DNA of 64,000 nucleotides from the NCBI GenBank assembly GCA_024998595.1, contig JACOEK010000004.1, positions 62,001-126,000 on the forward strand, in the 5' to 3' direction. A program made the position numbers and the translations under genes. Under the pieces are notes generated by a model, which did not search any database, was not told where the DNA came from, and saw only the letters and a program-made list of their open reading frames with translations. Source of the DNA: Nitrospira sp. (GTDB lineage: Bacteria > Nitrospirota > Nitrospiria > Nitrospirales > Nitrospiraceae). Positions 26,374 to 50,933 of this stretch are shown in pieces (positions within the stretch are counted from its first letter, which is position 1; each line of letters starts with the position of its first letter).

Positions 26374-26862
26374 CTACCGCAGAGCCGCCTGAAGTGTCAG
26401 TTCAAGTTGAGCAAGCCGCTCCCGAGCCTGTGTCGTGTAGTAGCCATAATCAGATTCCGCGTGGCCGTGCAACACTTCTCGAAATTGATTTCTTGCCAGG
26501 TCCACCTCGCCGGCTGACATGGCCAGGGTCCCCGCATGTAAGCTGCAGGATGCTGCCATGGCGTGAACATCCACAGCCAGGCGGGTGGCAGGCTGGCTGA
26601 CCATATTTTTCAGACCGGCAGGCAGGATGGTTTCGAGTGGCGAATGCGTGGTTTGAGCACGGCTGACATCGCGCAATTTGCTTGAATCCAACAAGGCCGC
26701 TTGGCTGTCTTCGGCCGAGAGACAGTGGGTGTAGGTGCTCCATACGTCCATGAATCGGACATTGTCATAACGCACTGAAGTGACGGCCGGGTTAGCTTGG
26801 CATCCCACGGCTGTGAGAGCCGTGAACAGGAGGACCATTTGTCGTAATCTTGGATGTCGCAT
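26374..26862 (-). CDS. Putative lipoprotein
   Basis: A 162-residue protein taken from ATG 26862 (ATG 26880 adds six residues). The signal peptide ends in a lipobox LTAVGC followed by QANPAV, so it is probably anchored in the outer or inner membrane. The rest is mainly helical, with an SLHAGTLAMSAGEVDLARNQFREVL stretch (in two halves around residues 110-135) that looks like a TPR-like helical pair ending in YYTTQARERLAQLEL. No enzyme motif. It is convergent with glgA and marks the end of the GC-rich core block. Confidence 0.75.
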   Translation of the reverse strand: MRHPRLRQMVLLFTALTAVGCQANPAVTSVRYDNVRFMDVWSTYTHCLSAEDSQAALLDSSKLRDVSRAQTTHSPLETILPAGLKNMVSQPATRLAVDVHAMAASCSLHAGTLAMSAGEVDLARNQFREVLHGHAESDYGYYTTQARERLAQLELTLQAALR

Positions 26863-27405
26863 GGTGCCAGTCTTTCTCAAGCAATCTGCCTGGTCTTATC
26901 CAGGTAAGCCGTAAATGAGCAAATCTCGCGCCACTCATCGCACGTGTAAGTTGTTGAATAATTGTCACGTACTCTCGACCTGCTGGGCAGGTGCTGTCTC
27001 AATTAGATTCCACTGTGGGGAATACGACACGGATCATGAGACCAGTGGAAGCTGTTGGTGTCCGGCGGGGCATGTTCCGAGATAGGGGACGTACTGGATG
27101 TTGCCAACTTGTAGCTGGCCCCTCGCAATGAAGCCTGCGTTGAAGGGGGTCGGCGACAATCGTTCACCAGACTTCTTTGCAGTGAAGAATCGGTAGCGTC
27201 GGACCTTCCGGCTCGGCTACTATCTGCACGTTGTGAAGGAAATTTGCAGGCATTGGCAGATGACGACATGCGCTTCTTGAACTCATGCAGGTAGGCAGAG
27301 GGAGTGATTCTTCCTGGCGAATTCTGGGTAGCGACTAATAGTGTAGGACTTGATGGCCCCCTTGTGATACGAAGAATATCTCGACGAACGGTATAGAACT
27401 TCTTT
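26863..27405. other. Intergenic region between the core block and the phosphonate genes
   Basis: About 540 bases without a convincing gene. A 145-residue leftward open frame across 27003-27440 has serine- and arginine-rich, non-protein-like composition. Visible elements are two short hairpins near the lipoprotein gene, CCTGG-TCTTAT-CCAGG (26889-26904) and ACCTGC-TGG-GCAGGT (26978-26992), and ACTA-A-TAGT at 27334-27342. Promoters for the leftward lipoprotein and the rightward pepM must lie here, but I cannot place -35/-10 boxes with confidence. Base composition changes to more AT-rich across this stretch. Confidence 0.5.
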
Positions 27406-27420
27406 GAGGAAAGGTTCCTC
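27406..27420 (+). promoter_or_regulatory. Hairpin over the pepM ribosome-binding site
   Basis: GAGGAA-AGG-TTCCTC is a perfect six-base stem with a three-base loop, ending five bases before the pepM ATG at 27426. The left arm GAGGAA and the loop AGG are the only purine-rich ribosome site candidates, so in the folded form the site is paired or confined to the loop. This could lower translation unless opened by a ribosome, protein or temperature. Seen in sequence; regulation is inference. Confidence 0.5.
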
Positions 27421-27425
27421 CGCCC

Positions 27426-29060
27426 ATGAATTCGAGACAACCGCTGACTAAAACCCGCCAGTTTCGAAACTTACTCCTCTCCGAGCAGTTGGAGTTTATT
27501 TGCGAGGCACACAATGGACTCAGTGCCAAAATCGTGGAGGAGGCAGGGTTTCCGGGTATTTGGGCCAGCGGTCTCTCTATTTCTGCCCAGTTCGGCGTGC
27601 GAGACAACAATGAAGCGAGTTGGACCCAGGTTCTTGAGGATCTGGAGTTTATGTCCGATGCCACCAAGATTCCGATCCTCCTCGACGGTGATACGGGATA
27701 TGGCAATTTCAACAATATGCAGCGGCTCATTCGTAAGCTGGAACAGCGCAACATTGCTGCGGTGTGCATCGAGGACAAACTGTTTCCCAAGACCAATAGC
27801 TTTTTGAAGGGCGATGCGCAGCCGATGGCCGATATGCATGAATTTTGCGGGAAGATCAAAGCCGGCAAGGACGCGCAAACCGATCCCGACTTCTGCATCA
27901 TCGCCAGAGTCGAGTCGTTTATCTGCGGTTGGGGCCTGACCGAGGCGTTGCGCCGAGCGGAAGCGTATCACCAGGCCGGAGCCGACGGTATCCTCATTCA
28001 TAGTGCGCTTGCTGTCCCTGATGAGATCCTGGCCTTCAAGCGGGAATGGGGTAATCGATGTCCCGTTGTGATCGTCCCAACGAAATACTATTCCACGCCT
28101 ACGGATGTCTTTCGGCAGAACAGCTTTTCTATGGTGATTTGGGCGAACCACATGCTTCGGGCTGCCGTGTCGATCATGCAGAAAACTGCGCGTGCCTTGA
28201 AGCAGAGTGAAAACCTTCTGTCCATCGAGGACAAGGTGGCTCCGGTGTCCGAAATATTCCGTCTGCAGAATGCTGCGGAGCTTTTGGAGGCCGAGGAACG
28301 CTATCTTCCCAGGGGTGCCGAGGGCACGTCAGCGGTGGTTCTGGCCGCTTCCCGAGGTGAAGAACTGGGGGGACTGACTGCGGAACAACCTAAGACCATG
28401 GTCAAGATCCAGGGGGCGCCGATCCTGTCTCACATTGTCGATGCCTACAATGCCGTCGGAATGAAGGATATTCTTGTCGTGCGTGGATATAAAAAAGATG
28501 CCGTTAACCTCCCCAACTTGACCTATGTCGACAATGATGATTTTTCGCAAACCGGCGAGTTGGCGTCTCTGTCTTTGGCGCTGCGATCCAGGAAGGGGCT
28601 TTTTCAGCCGACGATTATTTCGTACGGTGACGTGTTGTTCAATAAGTACATTCCGCAGGCGCTGTGCCAAGAGCCGGATGATTGTGTGATATTCGTCGAT
28701 AGCAACTGGCAGGATCAAACCAGTTACGCCCGCTTGGGAGGTTTTGCCGAGTGTACGCTTCCGAATTCACGGAAGGCCTTTAATGCGAAAGTCTATCTCA
28801 AGCAATTAGGGGATCGTGTTCCGCCAGACGCCATTCACGGGGTTTGGATGGGATTTCTGAAGCTCTCTTCCGCCGCCGCCAGTGATATCAACAATGTCAT
28901 CCTGGAGATGCTGACTGACCCGGAGAATCGTAAAGCTGGCATTCCGCACTTGCTGCAGGAGCTGTTGCGGCGAGGATATCCCATCCGGGTGTTGTATACC
29001 GTTGGACATTGGCTGGATATCAATAGCCTTGACGATGTGGTGCAGGCCGGAAATTTCTAA
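27426..29060 (+). CDS. pepM: Phosphoenolpyruvate mutase fused to a nucleotidyltransferase
   Basis: A 544-residue two-domain protein. Residues about 10-290 are PEP mutase, which rearranges phosphoenolpyruvate to phosphonopyruvate, the entry to nearly all C-P bond biosynthesis. The diagnostic EDKxxxxxNS is exact at 116-125 ([10 protein letters not shown]), with the Mg-binding DGD at 87-89. Residues about 300-544 are a sugar-nucleotidyltransferase-fold domain with the signature [20 protein letters not shown] (306-325) and a metal-binding Asp at 402 (SYGDVL). Such fused domains are known to activate phosphonates as CMP derivatives (phosphonoalkyl cytidylyltransferase, PntC type). It leads into ppd. 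The product here is presumably a CMP-phosphonate; the exact phosphonate is not determined by the sequence. Confidence 0.93.
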
Positions 29061-29075
29061 TGCGCACTCTTCGTG

Positions 29076-29103
29076 GAAGCCGTGGCCGTTTCTCAACGGC
29101 TTC
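29076..29103 (+). promoter_or_regulatory. Hairpin between pepM and ppd
   Basis: GAAGCCGT (29076-29083) and ACGGCTTC (29096-29103) form a perfect eight-base stem with a 12-base loop, 16 bases after the pepM stop. No T-run follows (AATAGTC), so it is not a classical terminator. It may reduce read-through or protect the upstream mRNA end, setting the pepM:ppd ratio. The 112-base gap has no gene. Confidence 0.45.
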
Positions 29104-29172
29104 AATAGTCAACTTTGGATAACTCTAGTTGTATCGCCTATTCATGACGGTCTTGGTCTGGAGAAATAGAGC

Positions 29173-30312
29173 ATGATTGATCCTCGGGAATTTGTCGAAT
29201 ACCTCCAGGCAAACAGTGTTGAATTCTTTGCGGGAGTGCCTGATTCGCTGCTCAAGGAATTGTGCGCTTGCTTGGAGCAGGTGCCTGAGGCCGGCCAGCA
29301 TATCATCAGCGCCAATGAGGGCGGCGCCGTAGCGCTTGCGCTGGGTTACCATCTCGCGACACGAAAAATACCATTGGTATATTTGCAAAATTCCGGGCTA
29401 GGGAACATCATCAACCCGCTATTATCCCTGGCTGATGCGGAGGTGTACTCCATCCCTCTCTTGCTTGTCATTGGTTGGCGAGGCGAGCCGGGTGTACATG
29501 ATGAGCCCCAACATAAAAAGCAGGGGCGTGTCATGCTTTCTATGTTGGAAGCCATGGAGATCCCGTATTCCATTTTAGGCCCGGAAATGAATGATGCCGG
29601 GGGCTCGGTAAGTGAGGCACTGGCCTATGTCCGAAAAAACAACGCTCCGTTTGCGCTCCTCGTAAAAAAGGGGACGTTCAGCACCTTTACCGGCCACAAG
29701 AAGAAAGCGGCCGCGTTTGAATTGACTCGAGAAGCGGCGATTCAGCAGGTTCTGGGATTTTTGGATGAGCGTGATGTGGTCGTTTCCACAACCGGCATGG
29801 CCTCTCGCGAAGTATATGAGTACAGGGAGAGGAAAGGCGAAAGCCACGAGCGGGATTTTTTAACGGTTGGCGGAATGGGGCATGCTTCTCAGATCGCCTT
29901 GGGCGTTGCCCTTCAGCGACCGGACCGTTCCGTCTATTGTCTGGATGGAGATGGCGCTCTTCTCATGCACCTGGGGGCCCTCCCTATTACGGGAGTGAAG
30001 AAGGCAGGAAACTTTAAACACATTGTTTTGAATAATGGGGCGCACGATTCTGTCGGTGGGCAGCCGACAGTGGGGCTCACTACCGATATTCTTGGGATCG
30101 CCCGCGCCTGCTCCTATCAGGTGGTAATGCAAGCACAAACCTCGCAGGAACTGGAATCCTGTCTCCAGGAGGTAAAGCGATCGAAAGGTCCATGCCTATT
30201 GGAGATTTTGATACGCTGTGGGGCCAGAAAAGATTTGGGGCGCCCTGCCAGTACTCCAGTTGAGAATAAGCACGCTTTCATGGATTTTATTCAGGGCAGG
30301 GCTAATGTCTGA
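29173..30312 (+). CDS. ppd: Phosphonopyruvate decarboxylase
   Basis: A 379-residue thiamine diphosphate enzyme that decarboxylates phosphonopyruvate to phosphonoacetaldehyde, the step that makes the PEP mutase reaction irreversible. The TPP-activating Glu is in SANEGGAVALALG (Glu49). The TPP-binding motif runs from G259-D-G261 (LDGDGALLMHLG) to N287-N288 (VLNNGAHDSVGGQPT). Length and the HDSVGGQPT stretch match Ppd rather than sulfopyruvate decarboxylase or acetolactate synthase. It follows pepM by 112 bases. No aminotransferase, dehydrogenase or other aldehyde-using enzyme of the usual third step lies next to it. Confidence 0.93.
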   Translation: MIDPREFVEYLQANSVEFFAGVPDSLLKELCACLEQVPEAGQHIISANEGGAVALALGYHLATRKIPLVYLQNSGLGNIINPLLSLADAEVYSIPLLLVIGWRGEPGVHDEPQHKKQGRVMLSMLEAMEIPYSILGPEMNDAGGSVSEALAYVRKNNAPFALLVKKGTFSTFTGHKKKAAAFELTREAAIQQVLGFLDERDVVVSTTGMASREVYEYRERKGESHERDFLTVGGMGHASQIALGVALQRPDRSVYCLDGDGALLMHLGALPITGVKKAGNFKHIVLNNGAHDSVGGQPTVGLTTDILGIARACSYQVVMQAQTSQELESCLQEVKRSKGPCLLEILIRCGARKDLGRPASTPVENKHAFMDFIQGRANV

Positions 30313-30512: not shown

Positions 30513-31124
30513 CTACGACTTGAAGATCTGAACGAGAACCCCTGTCCTGGTCGTAGAGTTTGTTTTTCTCATGATGTGTTTGATGTGTTCTTTGACGGTC
30601 TGCTCGGTAATCTTCAGCGCATTCGCTATTTCCTTATTCGTCCAACCCTTAGCAAGGTTTTCAACCACCGATTGCTCTCTATTTGTCAGCTGAAATCGTT
30701 CCTTGGCTTGATCCGTGTTAAGCTGCTGCCGGCGACCCAACTCTTCCAGTGTGACTACAAGGCGTGCGTATTGAATACCGCCTCGGTCCGGAAGTCCAAA
30801 ACCTCGAAGAAGCACAGGCTGGTTTGGGTTTCCCGCGATTTTTTTGACCTCAAATTGCTCCCAGTCCTTTGCCTCCGTGCGAACCTGGAGTGCTTTCAGG
30901 ATTTCGGTGCAGAGCTCAGTAAGCGCTGAGGGGAGCACTCCTTGAGCCGCTTTCGCTGGAGCACCACCGTTTTCGGCCATATTGATGAGCTTAGACAGTT
31001 CAGCCGCTTGTCGGTTCATATGCAGAAGCTGCATGGACGAGGATAGAACGACAATTCCTGCGCCACAGCGCTGGTCGGCCAAGTTGTCCGCGGTTTCCTG
31101 CGAGGTTATAGCGATTTGAGCCAC
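30513..31124 (-). CDS. LuxR-family transcriptional regulator
   Basis: A 203-residue regulator. The C-terminal third (about 145-200) is a GerE/LuxR winged helix-turn-helix: LTNREQSVVENLAKGWTNKE (146-165), then IANALKITEQTVKEHI and RKTNSTTRTGVLVQ. The N-terminal part (about 15-130) looks like a small PAS-type sensor (GAGIVVLSSSMQLLHMNRQAAEL), without an autoinducer-binding domain or receiver aspartate that I can recognise. It is convergent with ppd and divergent from the polysaccharide export operon 472 bases away, so it is a good candidate to control one or both. Ligand unknown. Confidence 0.88.
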   Translation of the reverse strand: MAQIAITSQETADNLADQRCGAGIVVLSSSMQLLHMNRQAAELSKLINMAENGGAPAKAAQGVLPSALTELCTEILKALQVRTEAKDWEQFEVKKIAGNPNQPVLLRGFGLPDRGGIQYARLVVTLEELGRRQQLNTDQAKERFQLTNREQSVVENLAKGWTNKEIANALKITEQTVKEHIKHIMRKTNSTTRTGVLVQIFKS

Positions 31125-31596: not shown

Positions 31597-32295
31597 ATGA
31601 AAGTTAATTTCGTCTTTGGCGTCATGATCCTTGCTGGAAGTTGTGTCAATCTGGCGTTTGCCGGCCCATTTGACCAGGTGCCTAAAATTAGTCTGGTTGC
31701 AGGTTCTTCTGCAGCAACACCCCCTTCAGGTGCGCGCCACGGAGATGGGGCAGAGAAGTCCTCTCTGACCGTGACGCCGGATTACATTATGGGCCCGGAA
31801 GATGTTCTGGAAATTACCGTGTGGAAAAATGCGGATCTTTCGAAGCAGGTCCAGGTTCGGCCTGACGGAAGAATTTCCCTCCCCTTAATTGGTGACGTTT
31901 CTGCGGTGGGACGTACCGCTGCACAGCTAACGGAAGAAATCTCTGCACGCTTGAAGTCATATATGGAAAACCCAACGGTCTCAATCCTGGTTCGTGAAGT
32001 GAACAGCTATCAGATTTATGTTCTGGGAGAGGTGAATGCTCCAGGGAAGTATCCGTTGAAAAGTAAGACCACATTGCTGCAAGCCATAACTATTGCTCAT
32101 GGTTTTACCCAAGTGGCCGCCCGTAACAAGATCGTAGTCTTTCGATTTGGAAAAGATGGCGAGGGGTTGAACAAAATTAAGGCCAGTTATGATGACATCG
32201 TGCTCAGGGATGGGTCGGATCAAAATATCGAACTCAAACCGGGGGATCAGATTGTTGTACCCTCGGAAACTATGGTCGTATTGCCATCCAGGTGA
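31597..32295 (+). CDS. Polysaccharide export protein (Wza-like, SLBB domain)
   Basis: A 232-residue exported protein with a signal peptide (hydrophobic up to AFA at about residue 22, then GPFDQ) and no lipobox Cys. The Poly_export domain begins at about residue 60 with MGPEDVLEITVWKN and contains VRPDGRISLPLIGDV; the SLBB domain follows from about 130 with YQIYVLGEVNAPGKYPLKS. Family members form or feed the outer-membrane channel for capsule or exopolysaccharide. It is first in the assembly operon and followed by a closely related paralogue. It is shorter than E. coli Wza and lacks the C-terminal membrane helix, so the outer-membrane pore may be formed by the barrel protein two genes on. Confidence 0.9.
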   Translation: MKVNFVFGVMILAGSCVNLAFAGPFDQVPKISLVAGSSAATPPSGARHGDGAEKSSLTVTPDYIMGPEDVLEITVWKNADLSKQVQVRPDGRISLPLIGDVSAVGRTAAQLTEEISARLKSYMENPTVSILVREVNSYQIYVLGEVNAPGKYPLKSKTTLLQAITIAHGFTQVAARNKIVVFRFGKDGEGLNKIKASYDDIVLRDGSDQNIELKPGDQIVVPSETMVVLPSR

Positions 32296-32356
32296 TTGTT
32301 GTTAGTTGGGTTGTAGCGACGACATGTCGTACCGACGAGCCAAAGGAGTGAAGGAA

Positions 32357-32980
32357 GTGAAAACTTTCGGTTGCAGATGGTTGCGGGGGGGGGTATGTAT
32401 TGTTTTTAGTGCGATCCTCGCCCTCCCTGGATGCTGGATAGGTAATGAACAAATAGATTTTAACGTTACCTATATCCCGCCGAATGAGTTTTTGTTAGGC
32501 CCTGAAGATGTTCTTGTAGTAAATGTGTGGAGAAATCAGGAGCTTTCTCGAGAAGTCATTATTCGGCCTGACGGGAAGATTTCCATGCCCTTGATTGGAG
32601 ACGTTCAGGCGGCTGGAATGACATCGAACGTCTTGGCAAAGCGAATTGCTGATGGACTGGCGGAGTTCATGTCAAATCCAACAGTCTCAGTCCAAGTCAA
32701 AGAGGTTAACAGTTACTACGTATATGTGCTTGGAGAGGTCTCGAAGCCAGGTAAGGTTCCTCTAAAATCATATGCTACAGTTTTGCAAGGCATATCATTG
32801 GCTGGAGGCTTTACGACGTTTGCCTCGAGAAATAAGATCCATGTATTGCGAGTCGTTCCAAATGGTCAAGGTCAACCAAAGCAGGTTCAGATCCCGGTTC
32901 CATATGAAGACATTCTGCAAGGCAAGAATTCGGAGGGAAATTTTTTCCTCAAGGCTGGTGATGTCATTGTTGTGCCGTGA
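32357..32980 (+). CDS. Second polysaccharide export lipoprotein (SLBB domain)
   Basis: A 207-residue paralogue of the preceding protein. I take GTG 32357, with AAAGGAG at 32342-32348; ATG 32324 and GTG 32348 are in-frame options. The signal peptide ends in LALPGC (Cys about 26), so unlike its neighbour this copy is a lipoprotein. It has the same blocks in the same order: LGPEDVLVVNVWRN, IRPDGKISMPLIGDV, NPTVSVQVKEVNSYYVYVLGEVSKPGK and ASRNKIHVLR. The two copies probably arose by tandem duplication and may form a mixed or stacked export complex. The end overlaps the start of the barrel gene by 20 bases. Confidence 0.88.
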   Translation: MKTFGCRWLRGGVCIVFSAILALPGCWIGNEQIDFNVTYIPPNEFLLGPEDVLVVNVWRNQELSREVIIRPDGKISMPLIGDVQAAGMTSNVLAKRIADGLAEFMSNPTVSVQVKEVNSYYVYVLGEVSKPGKVPLKSYATVLQGISLAGGFTTFASRNKIHVLRVVPNGQGQPKQVQIPVPYEDILQGKNSEGNFFLKAGDVIVVP

Positions 32981-34571
32981 TCAGTTTCTGAGGATGTGTA
33001 AATTAGCTTTGATGAGTGTGGCACTGGTTCTTGTGTCGTGTTGGTGCGTGTCCGAATCTGCTGCTCAACAAATACGTGTCGTGCCGTCAATTTCTGTCCT
33101 CGAGCAGTACGACAGCAATGTGTTTTTTACTCCGAAATCTCAGTTAGCGGCGGGGACGAAAGCCGATGATCTCATTACGACGTTCACGCCTCAGCTGAAC
33201 TTTATGCAGAATAATAACCTCGTAAAAACGAATCTTTCACTGGGCGCAATTGTTCAGAAGTTTGCCCATAATTCCGAGCTGGATAACGTGGGGTTCAACG
33301 CATCGGGTGGAGTGGATCTCTCTCAGGCCGTGAACAGAGTTTTGCCGAGGATGAAAGCGTTTCGCGTGTTTGGAACATACCAGTATAGCCCTTCTGCTCC
33401 AGCCTTTGGCGCTGGCGGTCTAGGGGGAGGATTCGGAGTTGGAGGTGGTGGAGGGTTCGGGACGGGTGGGGTTGGAATTTCCGGACCCGTGGACTCTGGA
33501 CTTCTTACCCAACGCATTCGAACCACCATGTATAGTGCTGGTCTTGCAGATGCATATTCCCTTTCCCCCACTACGGACTTCCAGACCACATACACCTATT
33601 CCCAGTTGAGTTTTGGTGGTTCGTTTACTCCGACTTCCGCGACGGCAGGTCCAGCAGCACAAACGGTATTTGACACAACTACACATTCCATTACAGCTGG
33701 CCCGTCATCAAGGATCACCGCCATCGACACGTTGACGGTTAAGTATATGTTTACCCAAACTTCGCAGGCTCAATTTGGCGATTATACGATGCATGGCGGA
33801 AATGTTGGATGGGGACGCGTCTGGACAAAAGAATTAAGTTCTTCACTCAATGGTGGACTCACGCTTATTGAGCCAATTCCAGACTCTTCCGCTGCTGGCG
33901 GGCAGCGACGAGTTCCGGCCACTATGTTTCCCACTGGAGGGTTTAGTTTGACGTATGCTTCAGGTTCGTCATTTCTCCGAAAGTTGGGCAGCGATATACA
34001 AGAGATGACGGGAACCGGTGGATCCCCTTCTATGGGTGGAAACTTCCTTCCCCTTCTCTCTGGAATGAACATGCCGGGAGGTATTGCGTCTCCTGGATCC
34101 TATCGAATAACGCTTCTATATAATTTAGGTGTGTTCCCCAGCTTCGTTCAATCAGCGGGCCCGATCTATACGCATACTGTTTCCTTGGCCAGTGCAGCAG
34201 GAATCACTGACAAACTGACGGCTCAAGCACTTTTCAATGTTGCGCGAAGCAGTTTTACCTCCGAGTCAATTGGCACTACTTTTACGACCTACGGTACGAC
34301 GGTATCTCTAAATTATCTTATTACCCCCACATTTACCGCGAGACTTAGCCATCAATGGCTGATGTTCGACAATCAAACTAGCGGTCTTAGTGCAGGGGAT
34401 TTAGGATTCTCCAAACATGTTATTCTTTTGGGATTTACATACGCCTACGCGCCGCGTGGTGATTTCTTCCGTTCCGGTGCCTTTTGGGAAGGTGCTTCTG
34501 GTACGTCGTCATCGTCTGTGGATGCAGGAGCTGGCAAGTCCGGATCAGGAGGGGTAGATACAAAGAAATGA
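32961..34571 (+). CDS. Outer-membrane beta-barrel protein of the exopolysaccharide locus
   Basis: About 536 residues from ATG 32961, which has AAGG six bases before it; ATG 32994 is the alternative. A signal peptide ends near AAQQ (residues 34-37). The mature protein starts with VVPSISVLEQYDSNVFFTP, as in outer-membrane proteins of XrtA/PEP-CTERM exopolysaccharide loci, and goes on as alternating beta-strands with aromatic ends (YMFTQTSQAQFGDYT, FTARLSHQWLMF, ILLGFTYAYAP). A run of Gly with few other residues occupies about 150-171 and may be a flexible surface loop. Likely the outer-membrane port for the glycan. The TGA overlaps the kinase ATG by four bases. Confidence 0.78.
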   Translation: MSLLCRDQFLRMCKLALMSVALVLVSCWCVSESAAQQIRVVPSISVLEQYDSNVFFTPKSQLAAGTKADDLITTFTPQLNFMQNNNLVKTNLSLGAIVQKFAHNSELDNVGFNASGGVDLSQAVNRVLPRMKAFRVFGTYQYSPSAPAFGAGGLGGGFGVGGGGGFGTGGVGISGPVDSGLLTQRIRTTMYSAGLADAYSLSPTTDFQTTYTYSQLSFGGSFTPTSATAGPAAQTVFDTTTHSITAGPSSRITAIDTLTVKYMFTQTSQAQFGDYTMHGGNVGWGRVWTKELSSSLNGGLTLIEPIPDSSAAGGQRRVPATMFPTGGFSLTYASGSSFLRKLGSDIQEMTGTGGSPSMGGNFLPLLSGMNMPGGIASPGSYRITLLYNLGVFPSFVQSAGPIYTHTVSLASAAGITDKLTAQALFNVARSSFTSESIGTTFTTYGTTVSLNYLITPTFTARLSHQWLMFDNQTSGLSAGDLGFSKHVILLGFTYAYAPRGDFFRSGAFWEGASGTSSSSVDAGAGKSGSGGVDTKK

Positions 34572-36922
34572 ACACGCGCACTTTGTCTCCAGAAGATTAT
34601 TGGCGAGCGGTTGTCAGTCGAAAGTGGCTGGTAATTTCCGCAATTCTGGTATCGCTAAGCATTGCCGGCGCGGTTTGTGCGCTCATGCCAAAGATGTATC
34701 AATCAGCAACAAAGATGTGGTTTGAAGGTGCGAAGATCGAAGAGTCAATAGTGAGTGGGCCCAATCCTGCGGGGATGGGGTATGCTCCCACTCTCGATGA
34801 CCGCGTCATGGAAGTGCGGCAGTTTGTGATGGGGCGAAAGACGCTCGGACAAATTGCGGGAGAGTTTGGCCTATTTGGGTATGAAAAAGATCGACCTGAC
34901 GGTGTAGATTCAGAAAATGCGGTTCGAGCGATGCGCGGATCTATCAAAGTTGAACCTACTAAGGACAAACTATTCATCACTCTATCATTCTCCAACGAAG
35001 ATCCGATTATTGCTAGGGATGTTACTTCACGACTCAGCGACCTTTTCATCGAGGAAACGCTCAAGGACCGGGAACGAGGGGTGGAGGCGGCCGAGGATTT
35101 TCTCGGGCTTGAATTGAAGCATGCCAAGTCCGAGCTTGAAGCGAAGGAAAAGATTATTTCAGAGTTCAAACAACTGCATCTCGGTGAGCTTCCTCAGCAG
35201 ATAGATGCCAACCTTCGCAAACTGGATCGCCTGCAGGAAGATATGCGGTCGCAAAGTGAGCAGTCCCAGAGCTTGTCCAGTCGCTTAATTCAGATTGATA
35301 AATCTATCAAAGATTATGAGGAGACTGGAGAAATAGGTAGTGATTCTCCCATAGGAGGCGCAAGCAAGCGGAATAAAGATCCGCGGTTGGGCAGAATCAA
35401 GGAATTGGAGCGGCGCCTCGTTGAGCTCTCGTCTATGTATAAGGAGACGTATCCTGACCTGGTACAAGTCAAGGAGGAAATCAGGAAGCTCAAGGAAATG
35501 ACGTCAGCTCAATATCGTGACCTGTTGCCCGAGAGTGACGAAGCGGATGAGCCAATCGCGAATAAGAAATCCAAGCGAAAGGCGATTGATCCGTACCATG
35601 CCGAACTCTTGAAACAGAGAGAGGATATCGTACTTGAATTGGATGCCCTCAAGCGTCGCCAAGCACATATTTCAAGTGAAATTTCTCAATATGAGCGAAG
35701 AGTCGAGCATACTCCTGAGCGGGAGCAGAGGCTGAAGACGCTTGAGCGAGATTATGAAAACCTTCAGAAAAATTATCAGTCGCTCTTAGATAAAAAACTC
35801 AGTGCCGGCATGCAGAAGAGCTTAGCGCAGGGACGTAAGGGGGCTAAGTTTAGCATCGTGGATCCAGCCTACACCCCCGTTGTTCCCGTTGTTCCCAATA
35901 TTCCAATCATTATGGCCGCTGGACTGGTCTTGGGCTGTGCCTTAGGTTTCGGAGGTGCGGTGGGCTTAGAACTCATGGGACGAGGATTCCGATCTGCTGA
36001 GGAGGTTGAGGTTACCTTGGGCTTGCCGGTAATTGCGTCTATCCCTCTCTATGAAAGCGCCTTTGGGGGATCAATGCAAACTGTTCGAGCACTCTCTGGA
36101 AAAAATCGCGCCTCTGCATTGTTGCTCCCAGGCAGTGCTCAGAAAGGCGACGACAATATTCCTGTGGCGGGTAGCCTCACGGCTACAACGGGTAGAGGCA
36201 GGGGCCAAAATGGGCAATTACATAGTCCAACTCCAGGGTTGGAGTTAGTATCGATGTGGCGTCCACTTTCATTCGTGGCTGAGCAGTATCGAGTCGCGGC
36301 AACCCGTCTCGAGCTAATGACTGGAGATCGAAAAAGCACTGCCATTGTGGTCACGAGTGCAGTAATGGGGGAGGGAAAGTCCTCCACAGCGCTTAATTTG
36401 GGCTATGTCCTGGCCAAAGATCTCGACCGTAGAACCATTGTGATCGATTGTGACCTCAAGCGGCCGATGCAGCATATTTACGCAGGAGTTTGGCAGCATC
36501 CGGGTTTGGTGGAGGTGTTACGTGGCACAAAGGCCGTTGAGGATTGTGTCCAACGACTAGGCGAGACGGGCCCCTGGATTCTCCCCGCGGGAGCGGTTGG
36601 AGATAATCCGCTCGCGCTCTCAAAGATGCACCAGTTGGCTGATTTGATTACTGACCTTAAAGAGCGGTTTGATTATGTAATCATTGACGCACCGCCCGTG
36701 CTGCCGCTTGCAGATATGCAAGTTCTAGCGAGTATGGGCGATCTTCTTGCGTATGTTGTGAAGGCAAGCATGACTGGACGTGATGTGGTACAAAAAGCGC
36801 TAAAGGCCATCGGCGATACAACGAATGTGGGGGTCATATTAAACGGTTTAGATGCCCACACGACTCCCTACTATATGCAACAAGAATATTATCGTGAAGC
36901 CCATCATGAACAGCTCAAGTAA
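34568..36922 (+). CDS. Wzc-type polysaccharide co-polymerase with tyrosine kinase domain
   Basis: A 784-residue inner-membrane protein. An N-terminal Wzz domain has the first membrane helix at about 20-40; a long periplasmic coiled-coil region (about 180-430, with LGRIKELERRLVELSSMYKE) leads to the second helix near 440-465 (IPIIMAAGLVLGCALGFGG). The cytoplasmic BY-kinase domain has Walker A GEGKSS (601-606), Walker A' TIVIDCDLKRP and Walker B DYVIIDAPPVLPLAD. The C-terminus holds a tyrosine group (YYMQQEYY) for autophosphorylation. It controls chain length and export. The ATG overlaps the barrel gene stop; the end overlaps the sugar transferase gene by 17 bases. Confidence 0.92.
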   Translation: MNTRTLSPEDYWRAVVSRKWLVISAILVSLSIAGAVCALMPKMYQSATKMWFEGAKIEESIVSGPNPAGMGYAPTLDDRVMEVRQFVMGRKTLGQIAGEFGLFGYEKDRPDGVDSENAVRAMRGSIKVEPTKDKLFITLSFSNEDPIIARDVTSRLSDLFIEETLKDRERGVEAAEDFLGLELKHAKSELEAKEKIISEFKQLHLGELPQQIDANLRKLDRLQEDMRSQSEQSQSLSSRLIQIDKSIKDYEETGEIGSDSPIGGASKRNKDPRLGRIKELERRLVELSSMYKETYPDLVQVKEEIRKLKEMTSAQYRDLLPESDEADEPIANKKSKRKAIDPYHAELLKQREDIVLELDALKRRQAHISSEISQYERRVEHTPEREQRLKTLERDYENLQKNYQSLLDKKLSAGMQKSLAQGRKGAKFSIVDPAYTPVVPVVPNIPIIMAAGLVLGCALGFGGAVGLELMGRGFRSAEEVEVTLGLPVIASIPLYESAFGGSMQTVRALSGKNRASALLLPGSAQKGDDNIPVAGSLTATTGRGRGQNGQLHSPTPGLELVSMWRPLSFVAEQYRVAATRLELMTGDRKSTAIVVTSAVMGEGKSSTALNLGYVLAKDLDRRTIVIDCDLKRPMQHIYAGVWQHPGLVEVLRGTKAVEDCVQRLGETGPWILPAGAVGDNPLALSKMHQLADLITDLKERFDYVIIDAPPVLPLADMQVLASMGDLLAYVVKASMTGRDVVQKALKAIGDTTNVGVILNGLDAHTTPYYMQQEYYREAHHEQLK

Positions 36923-37973
36923 GTCCGAACAAGAGCTTAGCCTAGAGCCATTGGCTACCCACCAGCCGATCGTTTCCGTGTCGGTTAGCTTTCCAAAGTT
37001 CACACGACGTGTGTTGATCCTTGGGGTTGGGCCCCTTGCCAGAGATCTCTGCCAGACCTTGCTTTCAAAACGTACCGGCTTCACAGAAGTGGTGGGGTTT
37101 CTTGATAAGGATGCCAGTCGTGTCGGTGAGCGTTTAGTAAACCCAAGCATCATCGGTACTTACGATCAATTATTTGAGATTGCAGAGCGCTACCAGGTTC
37201 ATACTGTGGCAGTCTGTTTGGAAGATCGTCGTGCGGTGTTACCTGTTCAAACGCTGCTAGATATGAAGGCTATGGGGCGCGATGTGGTCGATGGCCATTA
37301 TCTGTATGAGGAGGAGTCCGGCCGCCTTTCAATCGATCACTTAAAGCCCAGCGCTCTTATTTTTTCGACCGGATTTCGTCGTCGATTAGTCACCATGCTT
37401 TTGAAGCGAGCTCTCGACGTTGTGGTTGCAATCATTGGGATGATCGCGCTGTTGCCGCTTGTGGTAGTTTTGTCAATCCTTATCAAGGTGGATTCATCCG
37501 GCCCTGTTTTTTATAGGCAAATGCGAGTCGGGTTGCGGGGCCGCCCGTATATGATTTGGAAATTCCGCTCAATGCGTCAAGACGCGGAGCAAAGTGGGGC
37601 ACGATGGGCATCGAGCGAAGATCCGCGTGTGTCTAGGGTGGGGCGTTGGATCAGAAAGTGGAGACTCGATGAACTCCCTCAGTTGATCAATGTCATGAAA
37701 GGCGAGATGAGTTTGGTCGGCCCCCGTCCTGAACGACCGGTATTTGTCCAAGAACTAAGGAATACTATACCTTACTACGATTTGAGGCATACGGTTCGCC
37801 CGGGAATTTCCGGGTGGGCACAAACACGTTTTCGTTATGGTGCGTCGAAAGAGGATTCACACGTCAAATTGCAATATGATCTTTTTTATGTGAAAAACTT
37901 GTCACTGGCTTTGGATCTGCGAATTGTTATTAACACAGTCAAAGTCATGTTGATGGGTGAAGGGGCGCGGTAG
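36906..37973 (+). CDS. Undecaprenyl-phosphate sugar-1-phosphate transferase
   Basis: A 355-residue initiating transferase that puts the first sugar phosphate on undecaprenyl phosphate. The N-terminal half (about 33-150) is a Rossmann-like domain (VLILGVGPLARDLCQ, VVGFLDKD) as in WbaP/WcaJ-type proteins; the membrane anchor is near 168-190; the bacterial sugar transferase domain follows with SSGPVFYRQMRVG, WKFRSMRQDAE, DELPQLINVMKGEMSLVGPRPE and RHTVRPGISGWAQ. The N-terminal layout without the usual four helices fits the form in XrtA/EpsH-associated loci. ATG 36906 lies inside the end of the kinase gene. Confidence 0.92.
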   Translation: MNSSSKSEQELSLEPLATHQPIVSVSVSFPKFTRRVLILGVGPLARDLCQTLLSKRTGFTEVVGFLDKDASRVGERLVNPSIIGTYDQLFEIAERYQVHTVAVCLEDRRAVLPVQTLLDMKAMGRDVVDGHYLYEEESGRLSIDHLKPSALIFSTGFRRRLVTMLLKRALDVVVAIIGMIALLPLVVVLSILIKVDSSGPVFYRQMRVGLRGRPYMIWKFRSMRQDAEQSGARWASSEDPRVSRVGRWIRKWRLDELPQLINVMKGEMSLVGPRPERPVFVQELRNTIPYYDLRHTVRPGISGWAQTRFRYGASKEDSHVKLQYDLFYVKNLSLALDLRIVINTVKVMLMGEGAR

Positions 37974-37981
37974 AGGAATCT

Positions 37982-38908
37982 ATGCCTGACTCAATTCCGA
38001 GACATTCTCTATCATTCGACGTCGAGGAGCATTTTCAGGTTTCAGCGTTCGAATCTCCAATGAGACGCAGGCATTGGGAGCAATTTGAGAGTCGCGTAGA
38101 GAGCAATACAGATAAATTGCTGGGCTTGTTGAACCAGAGAGGTGTTCATGCCACTTTTTTTGTTCTCGGATGGGTGGCAGAGCGATATCCCTCTTTGGTT
38201 AGAAGAATTGCATCTTCAGGACATGAAGTTGCCTCCCACGGCTATGCTCACGAACTCATAACTGCACAAACGCCGGTAGCATTTCGAGAAGACATTCGAA
38301 AGGCCAAAGGAATACTCGAGGGTATTCTCCAACAGCCGGTGTTGGGCTATCGTGCGCCTAGTTTTTCCATCACTAAGGATACAATGTGGGCGATTCAAAT
38401 TCTTATTGAAGAAGGGTATGTCTACGATTCAAGCATTTTTCCTGTAGTACATGATCGTTACGGAGTACCATCCGCAAATCCTCAGGTGCATCAACTGTCG
38501 ACTCCGGCAGGGATTCTGTGGGAAGTACCACCTTCTACTGTCAAGTGCTTGGGGGTGAGACTACCTATTGCTGGAGGAGGGTACTTTCGTTTTTACCCAT
38601 ATGCGGTTCTGCGCGCACTCTTGCGTAAGTTGGAAGGCGAAGGCTCTCCGTTAGTGATGTACATGCATCCATGGGAATTTGATCCAGATCAGCCAAGAAT
38701 GGAAGGGTCAATGGTCTCCCGACTACGACATTATCTGAATCTTGATAAGACAGAAGGTCGAATGCGGGCGCTTCTTCAAGATTTTTCTTTTGCTCCCATC
38801 CGACGTGTGTTTCCACAAATCGAACAGATGCAAGACAATCTGATTATTCCGCCCATTACAAGAAATGCATCGATGCATGCATGCACCTCGTCTGCATCTC
38901 TGAATTAG
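37982..38908 (+). CDS. NodB-type polysaccharide deacetylase (XrtA/PEP-CTERM locus type)
   Basis: A 308-residue carbohydrate esterase family 4 protein likely to remove acetyl groups from GlcNAc-type residues in the glycan. The opening LSFDVEEHFQVSAFE (10-24) with catalytic Asp13 is typical of deacetylases found in XrtA-type loci. Metal ligands are H86 and H90 (SHGYAHE); RAPSFSI and the later YMHPWEFDP give the remaining motifs. It has no signal peptide, so it may act in the cytoplasm or on lipid-linked intermediates. It is 8 bases after the sugar transferase gene, and a 520-base gap follows, so it ends the assembly operon. Confidence 0.9.
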   Translation: MPDSIPRHSLSFDVEEHFQVSAFESPMRRRHWEQFESRVESNTDKLLGLLNQRGVHATFFVLGWVAERYPSLVRRIASSGHEVASHGYAHELITAQTPVAFREDIRKAKGILEGILQQPVLGYRAPSFSITKDTMWAIQILIEEGYVYDSSIFPVVHDRYGVPSANPQVHQLSTPAGILWEVPPSTVKCLGVRLPIAGGGYFRFYPYAVLRALLRKLEGEGSPLVMYMHPWEFDPDQPRMEGSMVSRLRHYLNLDKTEGRMRALLQDFSFAPIRRVFPQIEQMQDNLIIPPITRNASMHACTSSASLN

Positions 38909-49943: not shown

Positions 49944-50933
49944 ATGCCCAACAAGGCTTTAAAATGGTATGCGAAGCGGCTTATCCGGCGATATTCACCT
50001 GATTTGGTGAGCCAGTGGTTGCTAGGTAAGGATTCACAGGTCTATCACCTCTGGTCGATCGGCATTGTTACTGGTTCCTCTCCAACTCACCTTCGACATG
50101 CCGGTTCTATTAAGAATCCCGTTCTGACTCGAGAGCATGTGACCGATGTGCGCGCTCTATTTGTCGCGGATCCCTTTATGATTCAGGTAGGGGATACGTG
50201 GCATATGTTGTTCGAAGTCTATAATTACGATACGGATCGCGGAGAGATTGGCTGGGCAACCAGCCCGGATGGCTTTGTATGGACTTACCAGAAGATTGTG
50301 CTGAAGGAGCCCTTTCATCTGTCCTATCCTTACGTATTCGAGTGGCAAAATCGATTTTACATGGTCCCGGAAAGCCATCAGGCCAAAAGTGTGCGCTTGT
50401 ATGAGGCCAAACGTTTTCCCACAGACTGGGTTTGTACGGATGTGTTGCTGACCGGAGGGTGCTTCAATGACAATTCAATATTTCACCATGGTGAGCACTG
50501 GTGGATGTTCAGTGAGACCAACTCTGCGCTGATTCATGACACCTTACGGCTGTACTATGCAGATGTCTTGTCCGGACCATGGCGTGAACATCCGTCTTCC
50601 CCTATTGTCGAAGGAAATCCCCACATCGCTCGACCTGCTGGACGAGTGGGCTTGTTTTCCGGTCGACTCATGCGATTTGCGCAGGACTGCTTTCCGGTGT
50701 ATGGAACCTCGGTTCGAGGGTTTGAGATCACCGATCTCACGCCCAAAACCTATCGAGAGTGTCCGCTCTCGACGCGCCCGCTATTGGGCGCCGGGTGGCG
50801 ACACTGGACTCAAGGAGGCATGCACCATATTGATCCGCATCATCTAGGCGAGACCCAGTGGATAGCTGCGGTGGATGGATGGCGACCAGTTGGGTGGTTG
50901 GTCCCTGAAGGGTGGGAGCAAACATCATGTTGA
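49944..50933 (+). CDS. Beta-propeller protein resembling the N-domain of GINT1-type transferases
   Basis: A 329-residue soluble protein with a repeated five-bladed propeller pattern: ADPFMIQVGDTWHMLFEVYN (about 72-91), SYPYVFEWQNRFYMVPES (about 128-145), DNSIFHHGEHWWMFSETN (about 173-190), and a fourth and fifth blade ending LFSGRLMRFAQDC and TQGGMHHIDPHH. This is the GH43-like fold found as the N-terminal domain of glucosamine-inositolphosphorylceramide transferases and in many bacterial glycan loci. The conserved Asp in ADPF and Glu in PES could be catalytic or sugar-binding. Located between an SDR and a glycosyltransferase gene it overlaps by 7 bases. Role unproven. Confidence 0.75.
   Translation: MPNKALKWYAKRLIRRYSPDLVSQWLLGKDSQVYHLWSIGIVTGSSPTHLRHAGSIKNPVLTREHVTDVRALFVADPFMIQVGDTWHMLFEVYNYDTDRGEIGWATSPDGFVWTYQKIVLKEPFHLSYPYVFEWQNRFYMVPESHQAKSVRLYEAKRFPTDWVCTDVLLTGGCFNDNSIFHHGEHWWMFSETNSALIHDTLRLYYADVLSGPWREHPSSPIVEGNPHIARPAGRVGLFSGRLMRFAQDCFPVYGTSVRGFEITDLTPKTYRECPLSTRPLLGAGWRHWTQGGMHHIDPHHLGETQWIAAVDGWRPVGWLVPEGWEQTSC

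Follow-up and report, generated by a model that had tools for sequence, protein, structure and literature searches.

Pathways of phosphonate biosynthesis that begin with PepM are mostly used for the tailoring of cell surfaces, and about one third of PepM enzymes carry a nucleotidyltransferase fusion (Rice 2019, PMC6697681). Of the two enzymes assayed in that study neither is PepM-fused: Ari1348 is a separate PntC, and Tde1415 is a PntC fused to AEPT. In Tde-PntC the GxG(T/S)R signature carries Arg15, and the substitutions R15A, K25A and K153A each leave less than 10% of the activity (Rice 2019, PMC6697681). In Nitrospira, 'phosphonate' biosynthetic clusters are reported in all Nitrospira MAGs of one study (PMC9765116). 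Since PepM fusions are common and Nitrospira clusters were noted earlier, the system described here is a find of a known kind, and the initial annotation went too far in presenting it as novel. Among the papers available to our literature search there was no study of the phosphonate pathway in Nitrospira.

The window analysed in this work is a stretch of 64,000 nucleotides from a Nitrospira genome of 4.23 Mb, which is 99% complete and has one PepM. This PepM is part of a nucleotidyltransferase fusion of 544 amino acids (27426..29060, plus strand), which we call type A. Its PEP mutase domain (residues 13-283, 27462..28274, plus strand) scores 383.3 bits with TIGR02320, above the cut-off of 319.55, and the nearest solved chain of the fusion is the PEP mutase 1m1b (E 1.6e-127, residues 7-296). 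The exact PEP mutase motif that had been claimed is present: residues 116-125 (27771..27800, plus strand) match EDKxxxxxNS, and K118, N124 and S125 are invariant in 80/80 type-A relatives by column tally. Judging from the family and these residues, the fusion would convert PEP to phosphonopyruvate. The second half of the protein (residues 302-544, 28329..29057, plus strand) is a nucleotidyltransferase fold, as was also proposed; PF12804 (NTP_transf_3) matches residues 303-425 with 44.6 bits (cut-off 27), and the structure model matches solved nucleotidyltransferases. Intact congeneric copies of the fusion are 84-96% identical, and its closest named relatives come from Nitrospira MAGs, with an identity of up to 94% over the full length.

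Downstream of the fusion lies Ppd, a single chain of 379 amino acids (29173..30312, plus strand), which by its distribution is accessory. It was described as a complete phosphonopyruvate decarboxylase and we agree: it scores 489.9 bits with TIGR03297 (cut-off 312.5), covers model positions 2-360 of 360 and has both TPP domains (PF02775 and PF02776). The matches of the fusion, of Ppd and of the modelled second half are all well outside what chance would give. The proposal that PepM and Ppd together would commit PEP to phosphonoacetaldehyde is likewise supported (PMC6697681). An Rfam scan over the whole window gave zero matches, and promoter and terminator scans around the genes gave no useful excess over shuffled sequences. 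An antisense ORF at 27003-27440 was dropped because it shows no conservation. A small conserved gene at 26374-26880 (minus strand) has a lipoprotein-like signal, TAVGCQ, is 64-85% identical in 13 related loci and matches no Pfam family; it is outside the phosphonate pathway.

It is questionable whether the fused domain provides the 'built-in nucleotide activation' that was suggested for this locus. Our model of the domain (247 residues, pLDDT 92, pTM 0.90) has its best solved match in the T. denticola PntC domain 6pd2 (Z 27.6, rmsd 2.2, 226 residues). GlmU and LicC rank behind it (Z 25.5 and 25.4), and with a Z gap of about 2 the likeness to PntC is only a leaning. In the model of the full-length fusion (pTM 0.50) the domain arrangement is unusable. 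The nucleotide-binding signature (residues 306-325, 28341..28400, plus strand) is altered and has SRGEE, in general form SRGxE, instead of the canonical GxG(T/S)R, with S309 replacing the first Gly and E313 replacing the catalytic Arg. In a column tally over 80 type-A relatives, Ser or Ala stands in place of the first Gly, and none of the 80 has the catalytic Arg, its position being taken by Glu, Ala or Asp. K323, the catalytic Lys of the PK motif, is kept in 80/80. Compared with PntC enzymes, the domain therefore has the PF12804 match, the LicC/PntC fold and the Lys, and lacks the GxG(T/S)R signature with its Arg. Because of this missing Arg the built-in activation is doubtful, the more so as an unlinked locus encodes a PntC-like enzyme that is intact. 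The main activation is probably not carried out by the fused domain, whose signature is diverged and conserved. The conservation of the change, together with the presence of R310 three positions before the lost Arg in 79/80 relatives, makes a shifted working site possible, so that the domain may be atypical rather than dead. Its rate of change exceeds that of the PepM part (83 vs 95% identity within the closest group). A decay of the domain, which this pace could indicate, was not borne out, since in G033, G041 and G057 it changes no faster than the intact stand-alone nucleotidyltransferase.

This stand-alone enzyme belongs to a second locus, which is found in the same genome at G000:C6 ~518.3-526.3 kb, on another contig than the window. 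The gene run comprises a split TPP decarboxylase, an AEPT-like transaminase, a nucleotidyltransferase, a CDP-alcohol phosphotransferase, an HpnL-like protein and two glycosyltransferases, and the same arrangement is kept in those Nitrospirales genomes that we examined. The AEPT-like protein scores 344.8 bits with TIGR03301, just under the curated cut-off of 360.8, and its best solved relatives are AEP transaminases (E 4e-54); we liken it to these only in the sense that it might work like one. The best solved relative of the nucleotidyltransferase is PntC (E 2.5e-14 over the full length), and it reads GVGKR with the catalytic Arg in place. For the phosphotransferase it is the CDP-alcohol phosphotransferase AF2299 (E 6.6e-18). 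The split decarboxylase reaches neither the Ppd nor the sulfopyruvate decarboxylase cut-off. A catabolic reading of the AEPT gene was considered and rejected. A search of the own genome found no PhnJ (C-P lyase) and only weak sub-threshold matches to phosphonatase, which makes catabolism less likely. Two paralogous small secreted-looking proteins (L010:9080-10165, minus strand) accompany the AEPT locus in those f1 genomes that were examined, and a relative of one of them adjoins a type-B gene, described below, in G050.

In sister genera (G029, G030, G032, G034), and also in G064, G079, G111 and G211, a second kind of PepM-like fusion is found inside the remote-type AEPT locus. This type B (L061:9828-11489; also L082, L083, L084, L192-L194 and L196) is separated from the decarboxylase pair by one or two small genes and is about 36% identical to the window fusion where measured. 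It has EDNxxPKRCS for EDKxxxxxNS; the motif is EDNVYPKRCS, in general form EDNxxxxRCS, and the Trp, Asp, Glu, Arg and His common with PepM are kept. A Cys in this position is typical of methylisocitrate lyases. Type B scores 273-287 bits with the PepM model, below the cut-off of 319.55, and forms a separate, fully supported clade in our tree. Without the PepM motif, it may not form phosphonopyruvate. Second 'PepM-like' matches in L175 and L178-L181 were tried as type B and rejected, as they lack the PepM motif, have Cys-Gly there and resemble lyases from the superfamily at large. When assigned by best E-value, about 135 of the 217 genomes have type A and about 61 have type B. If the two were independent, about 38 genomes should have both; none is confirmed, with second partial matches in G097 and G209. 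G116 has two full copies, both of which pass the canonical PepM cut-off. The replacement of one type by the other is seen even within one genus (g6).

A PepM-type fusion, A or B, is found in 141 of 154 good genomes. Of these 154, 139 have both PepM and the phosphotransferase, 5 have the phosphotransferase only, 2 have PepM only and 8 have neither. This joint absence compares with 0.8 genomes expected (Fisher p 8e-9, where genomes are treated as independent, which they are not), and the eight genomes fall in five genera. Synteny in two of these eight, G065 and G154, shows that the decarboxylase and AEPT are kept and that the nucleotidyltransferase, the phosphotransferase and the HpnL gene are absent at the locus. 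AEPT is retained in 12 of the 13 PepM-less good genomes, so the decarboxylase and AEPT may have a separate substrate. Seven genomes (G065, G096, G135, G154, G156, G204 and G205) keep AEPT and have neither PepM nor the nucleotidyltransferase and phosphotransferase. Four PepM-less genomes that are 90-95% complete (G110, G132, G138 and G173) keep the nucleotidyltransferase and phosphotransferase, and missing sequence could explain the absent PepM. Type A also occurs in other phyla (Spirochaetota, Pseudomonadota, Gemmatimonadota and a cyanobacterium), and the genes that come after it there are mostly those for Ppd, AEPT and a nucleotidyltransferase.

We consider it reasonably probable that the window encodes the first half of a pathway for AEP tailoring, that the completing enzymes act in trans and that the acceptor is a lipid or a lipid-linked glycan. 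PepM would isomerise PEP to phosphonopyruvate, which either the adjacent Ppd or the remote split TPP-enzyme pair would convert to phosphonoacetaldehyde. The remote PhnW-like transaminase would then form 2-aminoethylphosphonate (AEP), and the stand-alone remote PntC-like enzyme would activate it to CMP-AEP. The CDP-alcohol phosphotransferase would transfer AEP to the lipid or lipid-linked glycan, which the HpnL-like protein perhaps carries across the membrane. We infer each chemical step, the acceptor and the cooperation of the two loci from what was directly observed, namely gene content, conservation, linkage patterns, mutual exclusion, co-loss, residue changes and predicted fold. The two halves probably belong together because type B is found in the remote locus of sister genera, types A and B exclude each other, PepM and the phosphotransferase are lost together and type A in other phyla sits in clusters with Ppd, AEPT and a nucleotidyltransferase. 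Several points speak against the split model: the loci are on different contigs, AEPT is kept in most PepM-less genomes, four of which also retain the nucleotidyltransferase and phosphotransferase, AEPT is below its cut-off, the split decarboxylase is below both of its cut-offs and type B is without the PepM motif. As the completing genes apparently lie elsewhere in the genome, the adjacent exopolysaccharide genes are probably not the main partner.

The initial annotation had assigned them this role, with PepM, the fused nucleotidyltransferase and Ppd making a CMP-phosphonate that decorates the exopolysaccharide of the adjacent XrtA operon, which we regard as unlikely. The candidate partner genes are XrtA/PEP-CTERM-type export and assembly genes (31597..38908, plus strand), recognised by TIGR03013 (415 vs 393 bits), TIGR03006 (378 vs 276 bits), Poly_export twice and a chain-length/kinase match. 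They were said to follow immediately; their start at 31597 is 1.28 kb downstream of Ppd, and a LuxR-type regulator (30513..31124, minus strand, PF00196 GerE), which is not part of the pathway, lies between. The gap and the intervening minus-strand gene place PepM-Ppd outside the exopolysaccharide operon. Conserved linkage to the glycan genes had been named beforehand as a test. Counting named loci with enough flank, exopolysaccharide genes and Ppd are downstream of the fusion in 6/6 complete loci of at least 87% identity, which belong to one Nitrospira clade, and this adjacency speaks for the XrtA model. Among 31 other Nitrospirales loci, however, any of these exopolysaccharide genes are nearby in 0/31 and Ppd in 6/31. 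The linkage is clade-specific and not a conserved unit. The fusion is found elsewhere in G001, G004 and G007 of the same genus, in G033 of a sister genus and in another family, with alternative neighbours such as a dicarboxylate symporter, acyl-AMP ligase/acyltransferase, SecA, aldo/keto reductase and AlgH-like genes, and Ppd is missing beside many of its relatives. A Pfam scan of 29 window proteins (some other genes were scanned with NCBIfam only) recognised neither an amino-transferase step nor a transferase of the LicD, CDP-alcohol phosphotransferase or EptA type, and the lack of the catalytic Arg in the fused domain also argues against the model, even if this domain is nearest to PntC in its fold. 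Since PepM clusters lie among polysaccharide genes in G055 and, outside the phylum, in L165, L170 and L172, the acceptor may nevertheless be a glycan. Of the phosphonate-decorated surface glycan that had been predicted, the surface tailoring stands as the usual fate of such pathways (PMC6697681) and the glycan as a possible acceptor; the operon link is clade-restricted and no phosphonate transferase was recognised among the window proteins covered by the Pfam scan. In G055 (L092:3459-10211), a canonical-motif PepM fusion and a stand-alone nucleotidyltransferase share one gene run with a polysaccharide deacetylase, a sugar transferase and a gene that resembles nucleotide-sugar dehydrogenases. 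In the polysaccharide region of the window itself, the gene at 49944-50933 (plus strand) matches GINT1_N, the N-terminal domain of glucosamine inositolphosphorylceramide transferase 1 (E 2.3e-55).

Another explanation, which we find quite improbable, is that the remote locus is unrelated to phosphonates and acts for example on sulfopyruvate or another oxo acid, with PepM-Ppd working with unrecognised enzymes. The retention of AEPT in PepM-less genomes, together with the decarboxylase in the two of them that were examined, fits this explanation, and so does the beta-like decarboxylase subunit, which has its highest score with the sulfopyruvate beta model (188 bits, below the cut-off). However, the presence of a PntC-like enzyme together with a CDP-alcohol phosphotransferase calls for a phospho- or phosphono-substrate, and the co-loss with PepM and the type-B fusion inside the remote-type locus would be difficult to reconcile with it. 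The product could also be 2-hydroxyethylphosphonate, formed by reduction of phosphonoacetaldehyde and activated by the fused domain with its different signature. Such an activation is known from the Fom1 fusion (PMC6697681), and the window has no transaminase beside Ppd. Moreover, seven distinct genomes of one family of the order have an aldo/keto reductase gene at 23-152 bp from the fusion, and one more has it just behind Ppd. In the Nitrospira loci tested, the window among them, no such gene was found, and the relatives of type A in other phyla are accompanied by AEPT. The known phosphonoacetaldehyde reductases are also of another enzyme class; they are metal-dependent alcohol dehydrogenases and not aldo/keto reductases. 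We hold this product to be highly improbable. The aldo/keto reductase genes beside the fusion (L057:6422-7264, minus strand; L059, L147-L149, L151, L158 and L159) may encode a phosphonoacetaldehyde reductase.

Under the split AEP pathway that we prefer, the layout over two loci would explain why cluster-based mining misses the second half. Nitrospira are dominant nitrite oxidisers in soil and wastewater, and a phosphonate pathway that is nearly order-wide would mean that they supply reduced organic phosphorus steadily. The signature change furthermore allows a specific and cheap test of the role of the commonest PepM fusion partner. A bolder suggestion, which we put forward tentatively and with some doubt, is that type B is a genuine phosphonopyruvate-forming replacement of canonical PepM across Nitrospirales and that the type-A fused domain is a diverged non-cytidylyltransferase with another role. 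If this were true, the motif used for counting phosphonate producers would miss a whole clade, and the idea of nucleotidyl activation by fusion would need revision.

The locus resembles several known systems. The Nitrospira clusters of PMC9765116 come from the same genus, and the accessible part of that paper gives no analysis of the pathway, a second locus or the fusion. The remote 484-aa protein shares with AF2299 and IPCT-DIPPS (4o6m, 4mnd) a CDP-alcohol phosphotransferase domain with DxxDGxxAR...GxxxDxxxD, and the two-domain IPCT-DIPPS model matches both of its parts. In contrast to these proteins its N-terminal domain is diverged, and the adjoining gene supplies an intact nucleotidyltransferase. 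The T. denticola PntC-AEPT (6pd1/6pd2) is the nearest solved structure for our model of the fused domain and also, among solved chains, the one that the remote stand-alone enzyme matches best in sequence. The fused domain is 20% identical to it, has Glu in place of the Arg15 that the stand-alone enzyme keeps, and is not fused to AEPT as the T. denticola PntC is. There is also a likeness with the PepM-PF12804/PntC clusters of Rice 2019 (PMC6697681), which share the PepM fused to a MobA-like nucleotidyltransferase, EDKxxxxxNS, Ppd, AEPT and a second stand-alone nucleotidyltransferase. Unlike in those clusters, the fused domain in the window has SRGxE and not GxG(T/S)R, the decarboxylase of the second locus has two subunits, the transfer would probably be carried out by a CDP-alcohol phosphotransferase and not by LicD, and the genes are split over two distant loci.
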